Assembly: GCA_021845945.1 (NCBI GenBank)
Contig: JAJZRD010000146.1
Coordinates: forward strand, 1 to 9,326
From: Chloroflexota bacterium
Lineage (GTDB): Bacteria; Chloroflexota; UBA6077
Reading direction: 5' to 3'
Length of the DNA: 9,326 bases
Shown here: positions 703 through 5,520 of the stretch, piece after piece
Position numbering within the stretch: the stretch's first letter is position 1
How the letters are laid out: every line of letters starts with the position of its first letter
Made by a program: the position numbers and the translations under genes
The notes under the pieces: model-generated
What the model saw: the letters and a program-made list of their open reading frames with translations, nothing else
Told to the model about the DNA's origin: nothing
Database searches by the model: none

Positions 703-1128
703 ATGATCACCCTGGAAGTCGAGACCAGCGCCCGCCAGGAGATGGTTCGGATCACCCACCAACTGGCCCGGGCGGTCCAGGAAGCCGGCTGGGAAAACGG
801 CCTCTGCCAGCTCTTCGTGCCCCACACCACGGCGGGGATAACCCTCAACGAGAACGCCGATCCCGACGTGGTCCGAGACCTCCTCTACTCCATGGAGCGG
901 CAGGTGCCCTCCAACGATCCCCACTACCGCCACTTCGAGGGCAACTCGGCGGCCCACATCAAGGCGAGCATGATGGGCTTCTCGATGGCCGTGATAGTGC
1001 AGGGCGGCCGGTTGGCCCTCGGGCGGTGGCAGGACATCCTCTTCTGCGAGTTCGACGGCCCCCGTCGCCGCCAGCTGATGCTGGAGTTCGTGCCCTCCCC
1101 ACCCAGGGACTCTTTTACACTCATTTAA
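703..1128 (+). CDS. yjbQ: YjbQ/UPF0047 family protein (secondary thiamine-phosphate synthase type)
   Basis: The 141-residue product matches the full usual length (about 130-140) of the YjbQ family. Visible motifs: PHTTAGITLNENADPDVVRD at residues 40-59, HFEGNSAAHIKAS at 77-89, and LGRWQDILFCEFDGPR at about 106-121. These are the conserved histidine/acidic blocks that line the presumed active site of this small trimeric fold. E. coli YjbQ has weak thiamine-phosphate synthase activity, but the physiological role of the family is uncertain, so the name should be read as a family label. The ATG at 703 is preceded by AGGAGG (690-695) with 7-nt spacing. The stop codon (1126-1128) lies inside the regulator box of the next transcription unit, so this gene and the downstream promoter overlap. 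No clear terminator follows. Confidence 0.92.
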   Translation: MITLEVETSARQEMVRITHQLARAVQEAGWENGLCQLFVPHTTAGITLNENADPDVVRDLLYSMERQVPSNDPHYRHFEGNSAAHIKASMMGFSMAVIVQGGRLALGRWQDILFCEFDGPRRRQLMLEFVPSPPRDSFTLI

Positions 1129-1172
1129 CAGCTGAGTAACAATTGCTTAGCAGCCCCACGGCACAATATTAT
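1114..1172 (+). promoter_or_regulatory. Phased response-regulator box (four hexamers, 11-bp period) with -10 element
   Basis: Four related hexamers lie exactly 11 bp apart: TTTACA (1114-1119), TTAACA (1125-1130), GTAACA (1136-1141) and TTAGCA (1147-1152). A -10-like TATTAT follows at 1167-1172. No good -35 hexamer is present; the last hexamer overlaps the -35 position, as expected for an activator-dependent promoter. Tandem 11-bp-phased hexamers are the known binding pattern of OmpR/PhoB-family dimers, and TTAACA with about 5-bp spacers resembles the Bacillus PhoP box. The same arrangement recurs upstream of the HtrA gene at the same distance from its -10. Inferred start of transcription is around 1179, about 260 nt before the small membrane protein. 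Confidence 0.7.
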
Positions 1173-1209
1173 GTCGTACGGGGGTCAAAGGCGACCGCCA
1201 AGTCCAGTC

Positions 1210-1338
1210 GCGAGGTTGAAGGCCGGCGAGAGAGTGGTGGTGATGGGCCAGCAGGGCTAGGACGGCAGCTACACGGCGAGCAGCGTCCAGATCTCGCCGG
1301 ACAACGGCCAGTCGGGCGAGCCACCGGCGGCGCGGTAG
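1210..1338 (+). pseudogene. Tail of a DUF5666-like/OB-fold-type protein interrupted by an in-frame TAG
   Basis: In the frame starting at 1210 the sequence reads RLKAGERVVVMGQQG, then TAG (1258-1260), then DGSYTASSVQISPDNG and a short tail to a second TAG (1336-1338). 'LKxGdrVvVxGxxxxDGsyTAssVxI' is the typical last portion of small secreted beta-barrel domains such as DUF5666. The parts on either side of the stop fit that pattern together, so the stop looks like a nonsense change in a once-continuous gene. The expected N-terminal part (signal peptide and earlier strands) is not recognisable upstream in any frame, so the head appears lost. It lies in the leader downstream of the regulator box, so it may once have been a target gene. 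Family recognition rests on about 35 residues and is tentative. Confidence 0.4.
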
Positions 1339-1355
1339 GAAGAGTCGCCAGGAGC

Positions 1356-1403
1356 GCGGCCGTCTGGCCGCCCTGGGCGGGCATCCTGCCCGCCCGCCCA
1401 GGG
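1356..1403 (+). promoter_or_regulatory. Two adjacent GC-rich hairpins in the leader
   Basis: GCGGCC (1356-1361) pairs with GGCCGC (1366-1371) across a GTCT loop. Directly after it, CCCTGGGCGGGC (1371-1382) pairs perfectly with GCCCGCCCAGGG (1392-1403) across a 9-nt loop. The second stem is 12 bp and nearly all G:C. No U-run follows, so it is not a classical intrinsic terminator. It could pause polymerase, protect the downstream mRNA from 5' decay, or be left over from the end of the broken gene just upstream. It ends 37 nt before the small membrane protein ORF. Confidence 0.5.
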
Positions 1404-1440
1404 TAGTTGCCGCCGGTTATGTGAGATGGTGTTATGATGC

Positions 1441-1560
1441 ATGGATGGCTACCCCAACTGGGTCGATAGTGGTTGCGGTTGCCTGACGGCCTTGAGCCTG
1501 ATTATCGCTTTGGCGCTTCTGGTGGGCCTGGTGCTGCTGAGGGGCGCCGCCATCGTCTAG
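1441..1560 (+). CDS. Small single-helix membrane protein (39 aa)
   Basis: ATG at 1441 opens a 39-residue frame ending in TAG at 1558-1560, just 14 bp before the response-regulator start. The N-terminal stretch (residues 1-14) is polar and acidic, with Asp2, Asp9 and a Cys12-Gly-Cys14 pair. Residues about 15-33 form one strongly hydrophobic helix (LTALSLIIALALLVGLVLL), followed by Arg34 and a short tail. By the positive-inside rule Arg34 favours N-out/C-in, placing the CxC pair near the outer face. An in-frame TGA at 1435 fixes the start. The ribosome-binding site is weak (GGTG at 1428-1431). I recognise no family. Its place as first intact gene in front of a regulator/kinase pair suggests a small accessory or modulator of the sensor kinase, but this is inference. 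Alternatively it may be a leader peptide. Confidence 0.55.
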   Translation: MDGYPNWVDSGCGCLTALSLIIALALLVGLVLLRGAAIV

Positions 1561-1574
1561 AGTGGGTGATGCCC

Positions 1575-2294
1575 ATGTCCAATGGAACTGTGCTCGTTGT
1601 GGACGATGAGAAGAACATCGTGCAGCTGGCCAAGCTCTACCTGACCAGCGAGGGCTACAGCGTCGAGGCTGCCTACAATGGTGTGGAGGCACTGGAGAAG
1701 GTGAAGACCCACCGTCCGAACCTGCTGGTGCTGGACCTGATGATGCCCCAGATGGACGGGTGGGAGGTATGCCGCCGTCTTCGCAAGGAGAGCGACATCC
1801 CCATCATCATCTTGACCGCCAAGAGCGACGACGTGGATAAGATCATCGGCCTCGAGCTGGGGGCCGACGACTACGTCACCAAGCCTTTCAACCCCCGAGA
1901 GTTGGTGGCTCGGGTGAAGGCCGTGCTCCGCCGCTACCAGGCGGGGGATCGACCCACCCGACAGGTGGAGGCCGGCGACATCGCGATCGACCTGGACCGG
2001 CGAGAGGTGGTGGTGGCGGGGAAGCAGGTCTCCCTGCGCGCCAAGGAGTTCGACCTGCTGGCAGCCTTCGCGAAGCAGGTGGGGGTCGTCCTGGATCGGG
2101 AGCGATTGCTCAACACCGTGTGGGGCTATGACTACGTGGGCGACACCAGGACCATCGACGTCCACGTTACCTGGCTCAGAGACAAGATCTCCGGCAGCGA
2201 GACCACCCGTATCCAGACCGTCTGGGGGGTTGGATACAAGATGGTAGTCACCGCGGGCGAGGAGACGGAAGTTGTTCCGCAGTCTCAGAGCTAA
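1575..2294 (+). CDS. OmpR/PhoB-family response regulator
   Basis: The 239-residue product has an N-terminal receiver domain (about 4-118) with the acidic pair Asp10/Asp11, phospho-acceptor Asp54 in VLDLMMP, Thr81, Tyr100 and Lys103 (TKPF). A winged-helix DNA-binding domain follows (about 129-224), with the recognition region DTRTIDVHVTWLRDKI and the closing wing TVWGVGYK. It is a cytoplasmic transcription factor activated by phosphorylation, presumably from the kinase encoded next. I chose ATG 1575 because GGTGAT (1565-1570), complementary to the 16S tail, lies 4 nt upstream. ATG 1569 is a close alternative, and any start near 1473 would add residues that overlap the small ORF and resemble no receiver domain. 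The polar C-terminal tail after residue 225 is dispensable-looking. Phased boxes upstream of this unit and of htrA are the likely targets. The family cannot be narrowed to one named regulator; MprA-, PhoP- and CssR-like are all possible. Confidence 0.93.
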   Translation: MSNGTVLVVDDEKNIVQLAKLYLTSEGYSVEAAYNGVEALEKVKTHRPNLLVLDLMMPQMDGWEVCRRLRKESDIPIIILTAKSDDVDKIIGLELGADDYVTKPFNPRELVARVKAVLRRYQAGDRPTRQVEAGDIAIDLDRREVVVAGKQVSLRAKEFDLLAAFAKQVGVVLDRERLLNTVWGYDYVGDTRTIDVHVTWLRDKISGSETTRIQTVWGVGYKMVVTAGEETEVVPQSQS

Positions 2295-3762
2295 GCTGGT
2301 AGCCTCCTACAGCCTGGTAATCCTGCTCTGCCTCGTGCTGGCCGGCTCTGCCTTCGTCTACATGCTGCGGGACTACCAGCGGCAGATCAAGCTGAACCAA
2401 CTGTCGGATCTGGCCGTGCCGATCACCTGGCAGGTTCGGCTACTGGAGCGTGCCGGTACCCCGCCCGACCAGATAGCTGCCTTCCTCCAGGACAGGGCGT
2501 CGGAGATGGACGTCCGCATCCTGTTGGTGGACTCCAACTCCGGGCAGGTGGTGGCGGACACCGACGGCACCCTCCAGGGCGGCCGGATCCCGCTGGCTCA
2601 GGCCTCGCAGCCCAGGGACAACCCCAACACGGTCTCGGTAACCTTCATTCGGGAGGGCAATCCGGGCTTCGTCTTCATCGTGACCCAGAGCCGCCCGGCC
2701 CCCACGGACCATTTCGTGACCAGGCCCCCCTCCTACGTCGTCGCCCTGGCGGTGCCGGAGCAGAGCCTCACCTCCAGCTGGCTGGAGCTGGCCCCGCGGC
2801 TCTCCTTCGCCGCCCTGATATCGTTGATCGTGTCCATCGCGGCCGCCTTCTTGCTCTCTCGCTCCATCTCCAAGCCCATCGCCGCCATAACCAGGGCCTC
2901 GGAGGAGATGGCCAGAGGAAACTACGACCAGAATATCCCCATCCGGAGTCGGGACGAGGTGGGCCGGCTCGCCGAGGCCTTCAACTACATGTCCAGGCAG
3001 GTGAGCATCTCCCACCGAACCCTGCGGGACTTCCTGGCCAACGTCTCCCATGATCTGCGGACCCCGCTCACCTCGGTGCAGGGCTTCTCCCAGGCTATGA
3101 TGGACGGCACCATCAAGTCGCCGGGGGAGTACGGCGAGTCGGCCCAGATCATCAACTACGAGGCCGGCCGCATGCGCCGGCTGGTGGAAGACCTGCTGCT
3201 GCTCTCCAAGATCGAATCGGGGCAGTTGCCCCTTGATCGAGGAGAGCTGGATCTGAGGGAGTTGCTGCGCATGTGCGTCAAGCGCGCCGGACCCCAGGCT
3301 CAGCAGGAGGGGGTAACCCTGGTGATGGAGGCGGATCAGCCGGCTCAGGTCGACGGTGACGAGGGCCGGTTGGAGGAGGTCTTCCGAAATCTACTGGATA
3401 ACGCCCTGCGCCACACGCCTCGGGAGGGAACCGTCACCGTGAGGCTGGAGAGCGCAACCGCCGTCGGTCCCAGCGGGAGCGAGAAGGGCAACGGGCAGAG
3501 CCGCAACGTCCGCCATCGCGTGGCGGTGCACAACACCGGGTCCTACATCCCGCCCGAGGACCAGCCCAGGATCTTCGAGCGGTTCTATCAGGTAGACAAG
3601 TCCAGGGCTCGCAACAGTGATGGGAGCGGCCTGGGGCTCGCCATAGCCAGAGAGATCGTCCACGCCCACGGTGGGACCATCTCGGTGGAGAGCGCCCCCG
3701 ACCGGGGCACGACCTTTACCTTGGTTCTGAGCGGTCAGCCATTAGCCATTAGCCCGCGCTGA
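2272..3762 (+). CDS. Membrane sensor histidine kinase (HAMP-HisKA-HATPase)
   Basis: The 496-residue product starts with TTG at 2272, preceded by GAGGAG (2259-2264) at 7-nt spacing. It overlaps the regulator gene by 23 bp, implying translational coupling. Domains in order: TM1 (about 9-31), an extracytoplasmic sensor of about 145 residues without recognisable motifs, TM2 (about 177-196), HAMP (about 197-247), HisKA with phospho-acceptor His260 in NVSHDLRTPL, and the ATPase domain with N-box around NLLDNALRH (373-381), F-box FERFYQVDKSR, and G2 GSGLGLAIA (451-459). The G1 box reads HNTGSYIP (420-427) in place of the usual DxGxGI. A hydrophilic insert (about 400-415) precedes it. The kinase should autophosphorylate His260 and pass phosphate to Asp54 of the partner regulator. 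Next to HtrA, an envelope or protein-folding signal is likely; this is inferred from context, not seen in the sensor. Confidence 0.93.
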   Translation: MFRSLRAKLVASYSLVILLCLVLAGSAFVYMLRDYQRQIKLNQLSDLAVPITWQVRLLERAGTPPDQIAAFLQDRASEMDVRILLVDSNSGQVVADTDGTLQGGRIPLAQASQPRDNPNTVSVTFIREGNPGFVFIVTQSRPAPTDHFVTRPPSYVVALAVPEQSLTSSWLELAPRLSFAALISLIVSIAAAFLLSRSISKPIAAITRASEEMARGNYDQNIPIRSRDEVGRLAEAFNYMSRQVSISHRTLRDFLANVSHDLRTPLTSVQGFSQAMMDGTIKSPGEYGESAQIINYEAGRMRRLVEDLLLLSKIESGQLPLDRGELDLRELLRMCVKRAGPQAQQEGVTLVMEADQPAQVDGDEGRLEEVFRNLLDNALRHTPREGTVTVRLESATAVGPSGSEKGNGQSRNVRHRVAVHNTGSYIPPEDQPRIFERFYQVDKSRARNSDGSGLGLAIAREIVHAHGGTISVESAPDRGTTFTLVLSGQPLAISPR

Positions 3763-3798
3763 CTGTCAACGGGTGAAAGCCGGTTGCTGGCGCAAGAT

Positions 3799-3846
3799 TT
3801 AACACTAGCGTAACAACTGCTTGGCATAAAGCTGTTACTATCTTAT
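3799..3846 (+). promoter_or_regulatory. Second phased regulator box and -10 element, upstream of htrA
   Basis: TTAACA (3799-3804), GTAACA (3810-3815) and TTGGCA (3821-3826) repeat at 11-bp steps, with -10-like TCTTAT at 3841-3846. Over 29 bp (3798-3826 against 1124-1152) 23 positions are identical to the box before the regulator gene, and the -10 sits at exactly the same offset (31 bp from the GTAACA hexamer). The match includes the flanking bases (GTAACAA, then TGCTT, then GCA). The two sites lie in otherwise unrelated sequence, so the conservation points to binding by one factor, most simply the regulator encoded between them. Inferred transcription start is near 3853, leaving an mRNA leader of about 55 nt. 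Confidence 0.72.
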
Positions 3847-3906
3847 GCTGCGAAGCTCGGTCGGAGAGTAGTCGGATACCCATTCCCCACCTTCCGGAGG
3901 TAGGCG

Positions 3907-5103
3907 ATGAAGCCCTTGTTGAAGAACTTTGTTCTCGTCCTGCTGGCCATGATCGTTGGGGCGGGCCTGATGCTGGGCTATCAACGCTATCAGCCCGTCG
4001 CCACGATAACCAAGCCTCTGGTGGCCGGTGCCCAGGCCACGGCCGGTAAGGCTAGCCTTCTAGATGAGGATGCCATCGCGTCCATCTACGATAAGGTAAG
4101 CCCCGCGGTGGTCTACGTCACCAACACCGCCAAGGCGGGCAGCCAGCGCAACTCGCCCTTCCGCGATCTGCCCCAGCTGCCCGGTCTGCCCCAACAGCCC
4201 CAGCCCTCGATGGGGACCGGCTCCGGGGTCATCATCGACGACCAGGGGCACATCCTCACCAACAACCACGTGGTCGACGGCGCCGATCGGCTGGACGTGA
4301 CCCTGGCCAACGGCGACACCGTCCAGGCCAAGCTGTTGGGCCGCGACCCCGGCAACGACCTGGCCGTGCTGAAGATCGACGTGGACAAGTCCAAGCTGAC
4401 GGTAGCCGATCTGGGCAGCTCCCAGGGCTTGAGGCCCGGCCAACTGGCCATCGCCATCGGGAACCCCTTCGGCCTCGAGCGGACCATCACTGTAGGTGTG
4501 ATCAGCTCCGTGGGGCGCACCTACGGCGGTGGGAGCAGTGCCAGGCCGATCCGCAACATGATCCAGACCGACGCATCCATCAACCCCGGCAACTCGGGGG
4601 GGCCCCTCCTCAACTCCTCCGGGCAGGTGGTAGGCATCACCACGGCCATCGAGAGCCCGGTCAGAGGCTCGGTGGGCATCGGCTTCGCCGTTCCCATCGA
4701 CGCGGCCAAGAGCGAGCTCCAGGATCTGATAGCCGGCAAGACCGTCTCCCATCCGTGGCTCGGGATCTCCGGCACCCCGGTGACCTCCAATCTCGCTCAG
4801 GAGCTCGGCGTTCCGGGCGAGGGGGTGTACGTGGTGCTGGTGCAGTCCAATAGCCCGGCCGCCGACGCGGGGCTGAAGGGCGCGACGCGCTCCGGGTCCC
4901 AGTCCGGCACCCAGGTGCCCAAGGGTGGCGACGTGATCCTGTCGGTGGACGGACAGAAGGTCAGCAAGGTAGAGGACATCTCCTCCTACCTGGACACGAA
5001 GAAGGCGGGCGACAAGGTGACTCTCAACATCCGCAGGGGCGGTGAGGAGAAGCAGATCGAGGTGACCCTGGCCGAGTGGCCCGACAACCTGACCCAGCAG
5101 TAG
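3907..5103 (+). CDS. htrA: HtrA/DegP-type serine protease, membrane anchored, one PDZ domain
   Basis: The 398-residue product begins at ATG 3907 behind GGAGG (3896-3900) at 6-nt spacing. An uncleaved-looking signal anchor spans residues 7-24. A low-complexity linker rich in Pro and Gln (about 84-101) leads into a trypsin-like domain with the complete triad: His121 in TNNHVVDGA, Asp151 in GNDLAVLKID, and Ser230 in NPGNSGGPLLN. One PDZ domain follows (about 284-388), with WLGISG as its start and the ligand-loop region GEGVYVVLVQSNSPAADAGL. It should act outside the membrane, degrading or refolding damaged envelope proteins. It has its own promoter with the phased box and ends in a strong terminator, so it is a single-gene unit next to, not inside, the regulator/kinase operon. 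Length and architecture are normal for Gram-positive, actinobacterial and Chloroflexota HtrA proteins. Confidence 0.95.
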   Translation: MKPLLKNFVLVLLAMIVGAGLMLGYQRYQPVATITKPLVAGAQATAGKASLLDEDAIASIYDKVSPAVVYVTNTAKAGSQRNSPFRDLPQLPGLPQQPQPSMGTGSGVIIDDQGHILTNNHVVDGADRLDVTLANGDTVQAKLLGRDPGNDLAVLKIDVDKSKLTVADLGSSQGLRPGQLAIAIGNPFGLERTITVGVISSVGRTYGGGSSARPIRNMIQTDASINPGNSGGPLLNSSGQVVGITTAIESPVRGSVGIGFAVPIDAAKSELQDLIAGKTVSHPWLGISGTPVTSNLAQELGVPGEGVYVVLVQSNSPAADAGLKGATRSGSQSGTQVPKGGDVILSVDGQKVSKVEDISSYLDTKKAGDKVTLNIRRGGEEKQIEVTLAEWPDNLTQQ

Positions 5104-5108
5104 ATAGA

Positions 5109-5159
5109 CAGGGCGAAGAAAAGGGCGAGGCCCGCGGCCCCGCCCTTTTCTTCGCCCTG
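5109..5159 (+). terminator. Strong intrinsic terminator after htrA
   Basis: A 19-nt arm at 5109-5127 (CAGGGCGAAGAAAAGGGCG) is perfectly complementary to 5141-5159. The 13-nt loop can itself pair (GGCC with GGCC). The right arm carries the TTTTCTT run, and the left arm gives a similar U-rich stretch on the minus strand, so it could work in both directions. It starts 5 bp after the htrA stop codon. Confidence 0.85.
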
Positions 5160-5185
5160 CTTCCAGAGAGTGCTAGAGAATCGAA

Positions 5186-5308
5186 AGGAGCATCCTGACC
5201 TACAGCGGGACTCTCCAGTCCAGCTTCCAGGTCGGTGTAGCGCCCAAGAGCTCCGGGCGGGTGGAGAAGCTGATGGTCGACGTGGTCAGCCAGGTCAGGA
5301 CCGGCGCC
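5186..5308 (+). pseudogene. Fragment of an efflux membrane fusion protein (HlyD/AcrA type)
   Basis: In the frame through 5198, residues [20 protein letters not shown], then [20 protein letters not shown], match the start of the lipoyl/barrel-sandwich region of RND-type membrane fusion proteins (typical pattern: GxIxxTYSGTVQSxxQVxVxPKxSGRVxKLxVDVGxxVKxG). The canonical Gly after VDV is Val here. There is no signal peptide or start codon ahead: an in-frame TAG lies at 5174-5176. After about 40 residues the frame passes directly into RND-transporter sequence. Only this N-terminal slice of a protein normally about 350-400 residues long remains, so it is a remnant, not a gene. Confidence 0.65.
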
Positions 5309-5520
5309 ACAAGCCTGGCCCTCACCATCGGTATCCTGGTGGACGACTCCATCGTGGTGCTGGAGAACATCCATCGCCACCTGCACATGGGGGACAAGCC
5401 CAAGGATGCCGCCCTGAAGGGGCGGAGCGAGATCGGGCTGGCCGCCATGGCCATTACCCTTTCTTCTGGAAGCGGCGCCGGGCCCTCCAGGAGGCTGTCG
5501 GAGACCGGCCCGCACTCTGA
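5309..5520 (+). pseudogene. Fragments of an RND (AcrB/HAE-type) efflux transporter
   Basis: Directly after the fusion-protein fragment, and in the same frame, comes [20 protein letters not shown], then RHLHMG and [18 protein letters not shown]. This is the TM4 region of RND exporters, whose conserved acidic pair (the DD in VDD) carries protons. The similarity stops abruptly after ITL near 5462. In another frame the sequence [19 protein letters not shown] up to TGA 5518-5520 looks like the basic cytoplasmic tail of such a transporter; this last assignment is tentative. Of a protein usually above 1000 residues only about 50 plus perhaps 20 remain, so this is a deletion derivative of a fusion-protein/transporter operon. 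It lies between the htrA terminator and the start of the MFS gene. Confidence 0.7.

Follow-up and report, generated by a model that had tools for sequence, protein, structure and literature searches.

A predicted operator of 11-bp-phased repeats before a two-component operon and htrA in Chloroflexota

Two phased arrays at the locus

The stretch of DNA analysed here, 9,326 nucleotides of contig JAJZRD010000146.1 from a Chloroflexota bacterium (assembly GCA_021845945.1) and hereafter called the window, carries a two-component system followed by the gene of an HtrA-type protease, with an array of short direct repeats before each of these transcription units. Its genes encode the C-terminal part of a galactarate/altronate dehydratase-like protein, YjbQ, a response regulator, a histidine kinase, the HtrA-type protease and an MFS transporter, and a chemotaxis receptor gene lies on the opposite strand. 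The response regulator (1575..2294, plus strand) belongs to the OmpR/PhoB family (Response_reg and Trans_reg_C domains), the sensor histidine kinase (2272..3762, plus strand) combines an extracytoplasmic domain with HAMP, HisKA and HATPase_c, and the serine protease (3907..5103, plus strand) has a PDZ domain and an N-terminal hydrophobic stretch.

Array 1 (1114..1152, plus strand) consists of the four half-sites TTTACA, TTAACA, GTAACA and TTAGCA and is the predicted operator of the regulator-kinase operon; array 2 (3799..3826, plus strand), with the three half-sites TTAACA, GTAACA and TTGGCA, is the one predicted for htrA. A first-pass annotation of the window had reported these seven hexamers, and we find all of them at the same positions and in exact 11-bp phase; likewise, the 29-base stretches starting at 1124 and 3798 agree at 23 positions, as had been counted there. 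The first hexamer (1114-1119) lies within the coding tail of yjbQ, the stop codon of which (1126-1128) falls inside the second.

The arrays exceed chance. The pattern DTWACA-N5-DTWACA-N5-DTWRCA is matched without mismatch at 1114 and 1125 and with 1 mismatch at 3799; allowing up to 4 mismatches on both strands of the window yields no separate third place, the two additional matches (3 mismatches) overlapping array 1, and matches with up to 2 mismatches are absent from all 60 versions of the window generated by a first-order Markov model. When scored with a half-site matrix, array 1 reaches 27.7 and array 2 reaches 15.1, and in neither case did any of 300 resampled sequences of the region attain the value. 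A known RNA element was considered and set aside, there being no Rfam match at gathering score.

Conservation of the arrays and of their promoter register

Relatives of the window kinase in Chloroflexota records share 64% (locus L001) and 53% (L002) identity with it, and in both loci the order regulator-kinase-htrA is kept; in genomes G013, G015 and G017, the distance from the kinase to a downstream htrA is 0.2 to 2.1 kb. The first-pass annotation had made its proposal depend on conservation of the hexamers in orthologous promoters, and such conservation is found, with arrays before all six kinase-linked htrA genes (window, L001, L002, G013, G015, G017; scores 9.6 to 26.1) and at five operon promoters. 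A shared direct-repeat operator thus stands before both transcription units and is kept in orthologs. The matrix used for this comparison had been trained on 17 loci, none of them from L001-L008 or L085-L097, and L181 was left out because it lies at a contig edge. Among htrA-family copies not linked to the kinase in 16 genomes of the order, only 2 of 25 score at least 9.6, a threshold set at the lowest linked htrA score (Fisher p 4e-5; rank test p 2e-4), and these two (L165, L178) lie about 27 and 11 kb from the kinase, on its own contig.

The position of the -10 element required revision. TATTAT (1167) and TCTTAT (3841), proposed in the first-pass annotation, are indeed both 42 bp from their respective TTAACA, but this register is unsupported in other arrays. 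We compared 33 arrays selected blind to the -10 (36 before identical arrays were merged; later repeats within one array were dropped, as were L083, L085, L099, L109, L110, L111, L118, L154 and, being too short, L116). Counted from the first TTWACA, TANNNT is found at +37 in 10 arrays, at +48 in 10, at +53 in 4 and at +42 in none, so that a -10 at +42 was rejected; the shuffle p is at its floor value of 2e-4 and is generous because some of the arrays share ancestry. With the window excluded, 17 of 31 arrays have TANNNT at +37 and/or +48, compared with an average of 1.7 for other pairs of offsets 11 bp apart and with 3 of 31 for the +42/+53 register. The peaks at +37 and +48 therefore place the end of the last slot 9 bp before the -10. 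Hence, judged from this register, the window -10 elements are probably CACAAT (1162..1167, plus strand; +48 from the first hexamer and 9 bp past the last; alternative TATTAT at 1167-1172) and TACTAT (3836..3841, plus strand; +37 and likewise 9 bp past the last hexamer; alternatives TCTTAT at 3841 and TATGCT at 3844), although CACAAT does not itself fit TANNNT.

Measured from the first hexamer of the best array, TANNNT lies precisely at +37 or +48 in all six linked htrA promoters: TACTAT (window) and TAGCAT (L001) at +37, and TACAAT (L002), TAGAAT (G015), TACAAT (G017) and TAGAAT (G013) at +48. At the operon promoters of the window, L001, L002, L003 and G010, an array is followed in register by [TCG]ANNNT (CACAAT, CATAAT, TATAAT, CATACT and GATACT, respectively), with TANNNT only in L002. 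In L001 there is no array directly before the regulator; the operon array precedes a DUF5666 gene that leads the operon.

Beyond these orthologs, the two-hexamer pattern DTTWACA-N6-TWACA has 19 plus-strand matches in 97 loci (912,170 bases), two of which are copies of the L001 site and the remaining 17 of which all fall in the 80 kinase-oriented loci; the single minus-strand match is located before phoU in L084. The reversed pattern gives 1 plus-strand and 1 minus-strand match. The mean plus-strand count over 200 permuted patterns is 0.6, and the maximum (12) belongs to a pattern that is the motif displaced by one base. At a matrix score of at least 14, 934,513 bases contain 34 plus-strand and 4 minus-strand matches. 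When each plus-strand match is assigned to the longest frame that begins no more than 500 bp away, a regulator or kinase follows in 24 cases and htrA in 2 (window, L001), with 3 matches before exported proteins (L010, L049, L058), 1 before a PstS-type gene and 4 elsewhere (L034, L036 and, twice, L060). Such strong arrays occur in 9/58 segments upstream of the regulator, 6/31 regulator-kinase gaps and 6/22 segments upstream of the kinase (4/46, 2/23 and 3/19 when training loci are left out). Across these 111 segments, the 11-bp spacing yields 21 strong matches and a 13-bp spacing 5, but none is seen at 9, 10 or 12 bp. The site is real and widespread, not universal.

These spacing controls also bear on the simplest alternative, namely that the hexamers are ordinary sigma-70 -35 elements in AT-rich promoter sequence that no regulator binds. 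Plain sigma-70-like pairs scoring 9/12 do exist (TTGGCA-N17-TATGCT at 3821-3849 and TTTACA-N18-AACAAT at 1114-1143), with 0.4 pairs of such score expected in shuffles of the region. However, the exact 11-bp phasing of three to four hexamers, its retention in orthologs and in the phylum, and the absence of strong matches at spacings of 9, 10 and 12 bp make this explanation highly improbable, and a standalone -35 was rejected.

The extent of the regulon is a separate matter. Strict scans with up to 1 mismatch gave 1, 2 and 1 matches in genomes G001, G002 and G003 (reversed-pattern control 0, 2 and 0), and the two-hexamer scan gave 2, 1, 0 and 2 in G001, G002, G010 and G012 (control 0, 2, 0 and 0). 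Of the self-contained regulon predicted in the first-pass annotation, the operon and htrA sites are conserved, but with matches this sparse the strict scans of the window's relatives did not show a regulon beyond these two units. Across the phylum, three strict hexamers gave 16 matches in 12 of 301 genomes (control 4), corresponding to 14 separate sites: seven precede transport-type genes (L100, L102-L107), of which only L100, L102 and L104 are phosphate-type by Pfam, two precede DUF2680-like exported proteins, one is the L001 htrA site, and the rest precede other genes. A scan of the class matched 2 of 29 genomes (control 1), the new match (L184) being located before an open frame and followed by TAGCAT at +48, as judged by eye. 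As a side observation, an array of four slots stands before the gene of an exported multi-repeat protein in G190 (L101, 1501-2540) and in G054 (L099); the L101 protein has a DUF2680 match and is followed, by eye, by a regulator frame.

The phosphate paralogue and the choice of regulator

The first-pass annotation had also raised a link to phosphate control on account of the resemblance to pho boxes, whose spacing is 11 bp and whose repeat in Bacillus is TTAACA. An excerpt of PMC10294691 describes the pho box of PhoB/PhoP as direct repeats. The resemblance extends to target genes: in Chloroflexota, arrays with the same half-site and phase precede a Na/Pi transporter (L102), PstS-type binding proteins (L100, L104, L115; in L100 a 157-aa frame intervenes) and phoU (L114), and TANNNT is in register in L100, L104 and L115 and absent in L102 and L114. 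Arrays are also found upstream of genes for a further solute-binding protein, an MFS transporter, MgtC and an ABC ATPase. Ortholog L002 comes from genome G002, where a PstS-type gene lies divergently to a phoU-regulator pair; each side has one array, neither with a -10 in register. The regulator of this pair ranks second among the G002 matches to that of the window (51%). In the tree, the window regulator is placed in a 66-member clade (support 100/99), and the phoU-linked regulator falls into the neighbouring tree group (fork support 91/85). The stretches examined around the corresponding regulators L123 and L125 (L149, L151) contained no adjacent phoU. The recognition helix reads HVTWLR in the window and in most members of its order (five have AG, SS, AW or KH instead), HIAHLR in most Anaerolineae, HIRGLR in the phoU-linked copy L124 and HIRSLR in the tree neighbour L125. 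The phosphate resemblance is more than chance, being real at the level of the DNA, and indicates a true family relationship.

The arrays could be pho boxes bound by the phoU-linked paralogue, which would make htrA and the two-component operon phosphate-starvation genes; the phosphate-type genes with common half-site and phase, the register -10 in three of them, the arrays of G002 and the adjacent position of the phoU-linked regulator in the tree all speak for this. On the other hand, the window regulator forms a separate clade, its helix carries TW (AH in most Anaerolineae) rather than RG or RS, and profile searches of the window proteins brought no phosphate gene to notice. Because of the separate clade, and because the arrays follow kinase-linked htrA (6/6, versus 2/25 for other copies), the phosphate assignment is the weaker one at both sites; we consider it improbable and reject it as the sole explanation.

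Alternatively, both paralogous regulators might bind the common half-site, with small base differences choosing the promoter and with htrA integrating envelope and phosphate signals. G002 does hold an htrA site as well as PstS-type and phoU sites with a common half-site. Moreover, the third half-site base is A in 18/21 TW-lineage sites and T in 22/28 Anaerolineae-lineage sites (3 A, 3 T and 1 C in the G013/G015/G017 group, where the helix has AG or SS), although this shift amounts to a single phylogenetic contrast in a hand-picked list chosen partly with a T-weighted matrix. Since overlapping binding would not establish overlapping use either, we regard dual control as somewhat less probable still than purely phosphate-dependent control.

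Synteny and the regulator tree thus favour the local regulator as the better candidate for both promoters, and we consider it probable, from the layout of the DNA, that the arrays are tandem binding sites of the OmpR/PhoB-family regulator encoded between them, which would autoregulate its operon and activate htrA. The direct-repeat operator that the first-pass annotation ascribed to such a regulator is supported by the 11-bp phase of the half-sites and the conserved array and -10 register, and the autoregulation and htrA activation predicted there are upheld as the best reading. As the repeats are found before both the switch and the protease, and as this layout is kept in relatives, the switch probably activates itself and the protease. 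In the mechanism we propose, an envelope signal would cause the kinase (2272-3762) to phosphorylate the regulator, and regulator dimers may then occupy the successive 11-bp slots along one face of the double helix; the slot nearest the -10, ending 9 bp before it, would replace the missing -35, and the bound regulator would recruit RNA polymerase by class II activation. The outcome would be positive feedback on the regulator-kinase operon combined with induction of HtrA by envelope damage, and the induced HtrA could degrade or refold damaged exported proteins.

Several observations weigh against autoregulation and htrA activation by the local regulator. (i) With a resampling p of at most 0.027 as the measure, the contrast becomes 6/6 linked versus 4/25 unlinked htrA copies, and only 3/6 linked htrA promoters score at least 14. 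(ii) The aligned operon array of L002 is the second-best, another site scoring higher, and in ten cases within the order (L087, L089-L097) the sequence upstream of the regulator is without an array at p up to 0.1. In at least two of these array-less genomes (L004/L091, L006/L093) a MacB-like permease seems, by eye, to end just upstream of the regulator, and the promoter may therefore lie further out. (iii) Only 21/80 loci have a strong array in the tested segments (0.63 expected from resampled sequence), and the matrix had been trained on 15 of the loci on which it was later run. (iv) The arrays of the -10 test partly share descent. (v) Genes of the phoU-linked paralogue carry the same half-site. 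(vi) The alignment behind a structure model of the kinase comprised 46 sequences, of which 45 had been picked from 120 listed; the model (mean pLDDT 79.4, pTM 0.51) gave no clue to the signal, its sensor domain being barely covered by the matches.

The neighbouring genes in relatives are consistent with an envelope role: L001 has DUF5666, HlyD-type and DUF2680 (24.7 bits versus a cutoff of 25) neighbours, the MacB-like permease seems, by eye, to end before the regulator in L004 and L006, and the exported protein of L049 has a sub-cutoff LTXXQ match (18.4 versus 24.3 bits). In the window, a decayed DUF5666-type remnant with an in-frame stop (1190..1338, plus strand; similarity by eye) is located between array 1 and the regulator, its intact counterpart in L001 (4699-5256) having a DUF5666 match, and a small ORF of 39 aa with one hydrophobic stretch (1441..1560, plus strand) lies immediately 5' of the regulator. 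L003 has a 44-aa hydrophobic ORF at the matching place (5115-5249), with no clear similarity by eye. Three further features were observed: an apparently decayed AcrB-type efflux pump fragment 3' of the window htrA (5261-5470; ACR_tran, 7e-12), an HlyD-type protein downstream of htrA in L001 (9794-11722), and a repeated G+C-rich stretch between the dehydratase fragment and yjbQ (541-690; cgggagggtgtcagcgggagggcgagcctccc-like, by eye).

Comparison with known systems and implications

Pfam places the regulator in the OmpR/PhoB family (PF00072 120.2 bits, PF00486 88.5 bits, both above cutoff). Among the 25 curated families listed of 101 matched, no regulator cutoff is reached, MtrA NF040689 for example being matched with 241.2 of 300 bits and PhoB TIGR02154 with 216.6 of 296.2 bits, and no CiaR, CssR or MprA model is present. 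The htrA product matches Trypsin_2 and PDZ_2 and scores 325.3 bits with the Do/HtrA model TIGR02037, under the cutoff of 416.2. WalRK (YycFG) of the Bacillota provides the best-scoring NCBIfam model for both window proteins, and the matches of the kinase model (Foldseek, VIA-align) are dominated by the kinase core, where YycG/WalK lead and CusS and HK853 are also near the top. Furthermore, the Bacillus wal operon includes an htr gene. However, the regulator scores 250.2 versus a cutoff of 340 bits (WalR/YycF NF040534) and the kinase 268.9 versus 725 bits (WalK NF033092), and Pfam detects no PAS domain in the kinase at E 0.001. Read on the opposite strand, positions 1125-1141 match, by eye, the WalR site TGTHH-N6-WGTNDD given in an excerpt of PMC10746227.

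The Cpx system resembles that of the window in that degP is a Cpx target in Enterobacteria and Pseudomonas. According to an excerpt of PMC12802237, CpxAR is associated with the direct repeat GTAAA-N5-GTAAA, the reverse complement of TTTAC-N5-TTTAC, and RND efflux genes are among the predicted targets. In contrast, the window regulator scores 167.1 bits versus a CpxR cutoff (NF008199) of 341, and the direction of the repeat relative to the promoter is probably opposite. CiaRH of Streptococcus is a two-component system whose regulator binds the htrA promoter (PMC12826053, excerpt), and its site, TTTAAG-N5-TTTAAG, has the same 11-bp phase, promoter predictions having sought a -10 ten bases past the last hexamer (PMC3091779, excerpt), compared with 9 bp here. 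As far as these excerpts go, the CiaR half-site differs in ending with AAG rather than ACA, in being present twice rather than three or four times and in belonging to another phylum, and the recognition helix reads VVEVYVSKVRKKL in CiaR versus TIDVHVTWLRDK in the window regulator. The predicted autoregulation combined with an HtrA target likewise links the window to CssRS of Bacillus (htrA/htrB; PMC12826053, excerpt) and to MprAB of Actinobacteria (htrA/pepD), which in Corynebacterium is positively autoregulated and has htrA as a direct target (PMC12113857, excerpt), both again in other phyla. By analogy, the window system would work like CiaRH-htrA, Cpx-degP, CssRS-htrA and MprAB-htrA without reaching the listed curated regulator cutoffs.

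A search of the open-licence literature, which is weak evidence of absence, brought up, among the papers listed, none that deals with a two-component system linked to HtrA, or with the operator of such a system, in Chloroflexi/Chloroflexota; as far as this literature goes, the novelty lies in the phylum, in the register of the promoter and in a half-site common to the phosphate paralogue. We also put forward, as a conjecture that is possible but rather doubtful, a quantised promoter code of the Chloroflexota, in which three to four 11-bp TTWACA slots would be followed by a -10 locked 9 bp after the last slot, without a -35, and which would be common to the envelope-stress clade and the phosphate paralogue. 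After duplication, the two might have diverged via the helix (R[GS] to TW or AH) and the third base (A with TW, T with AH). The Chloroflexota are abundant and mostly uncultured, and if this code were true, regulons across the phylum would be readable from sequence. The local operator would itself set the Chloroflexota beside Cia, Cpx, Css and Mpr, and the paralogous regulators would offer a natural pair on one half-site, useful for specificity studies. Finally, a readable operator with a fixed distance to the -10 would allow regulon prediction from contigs.

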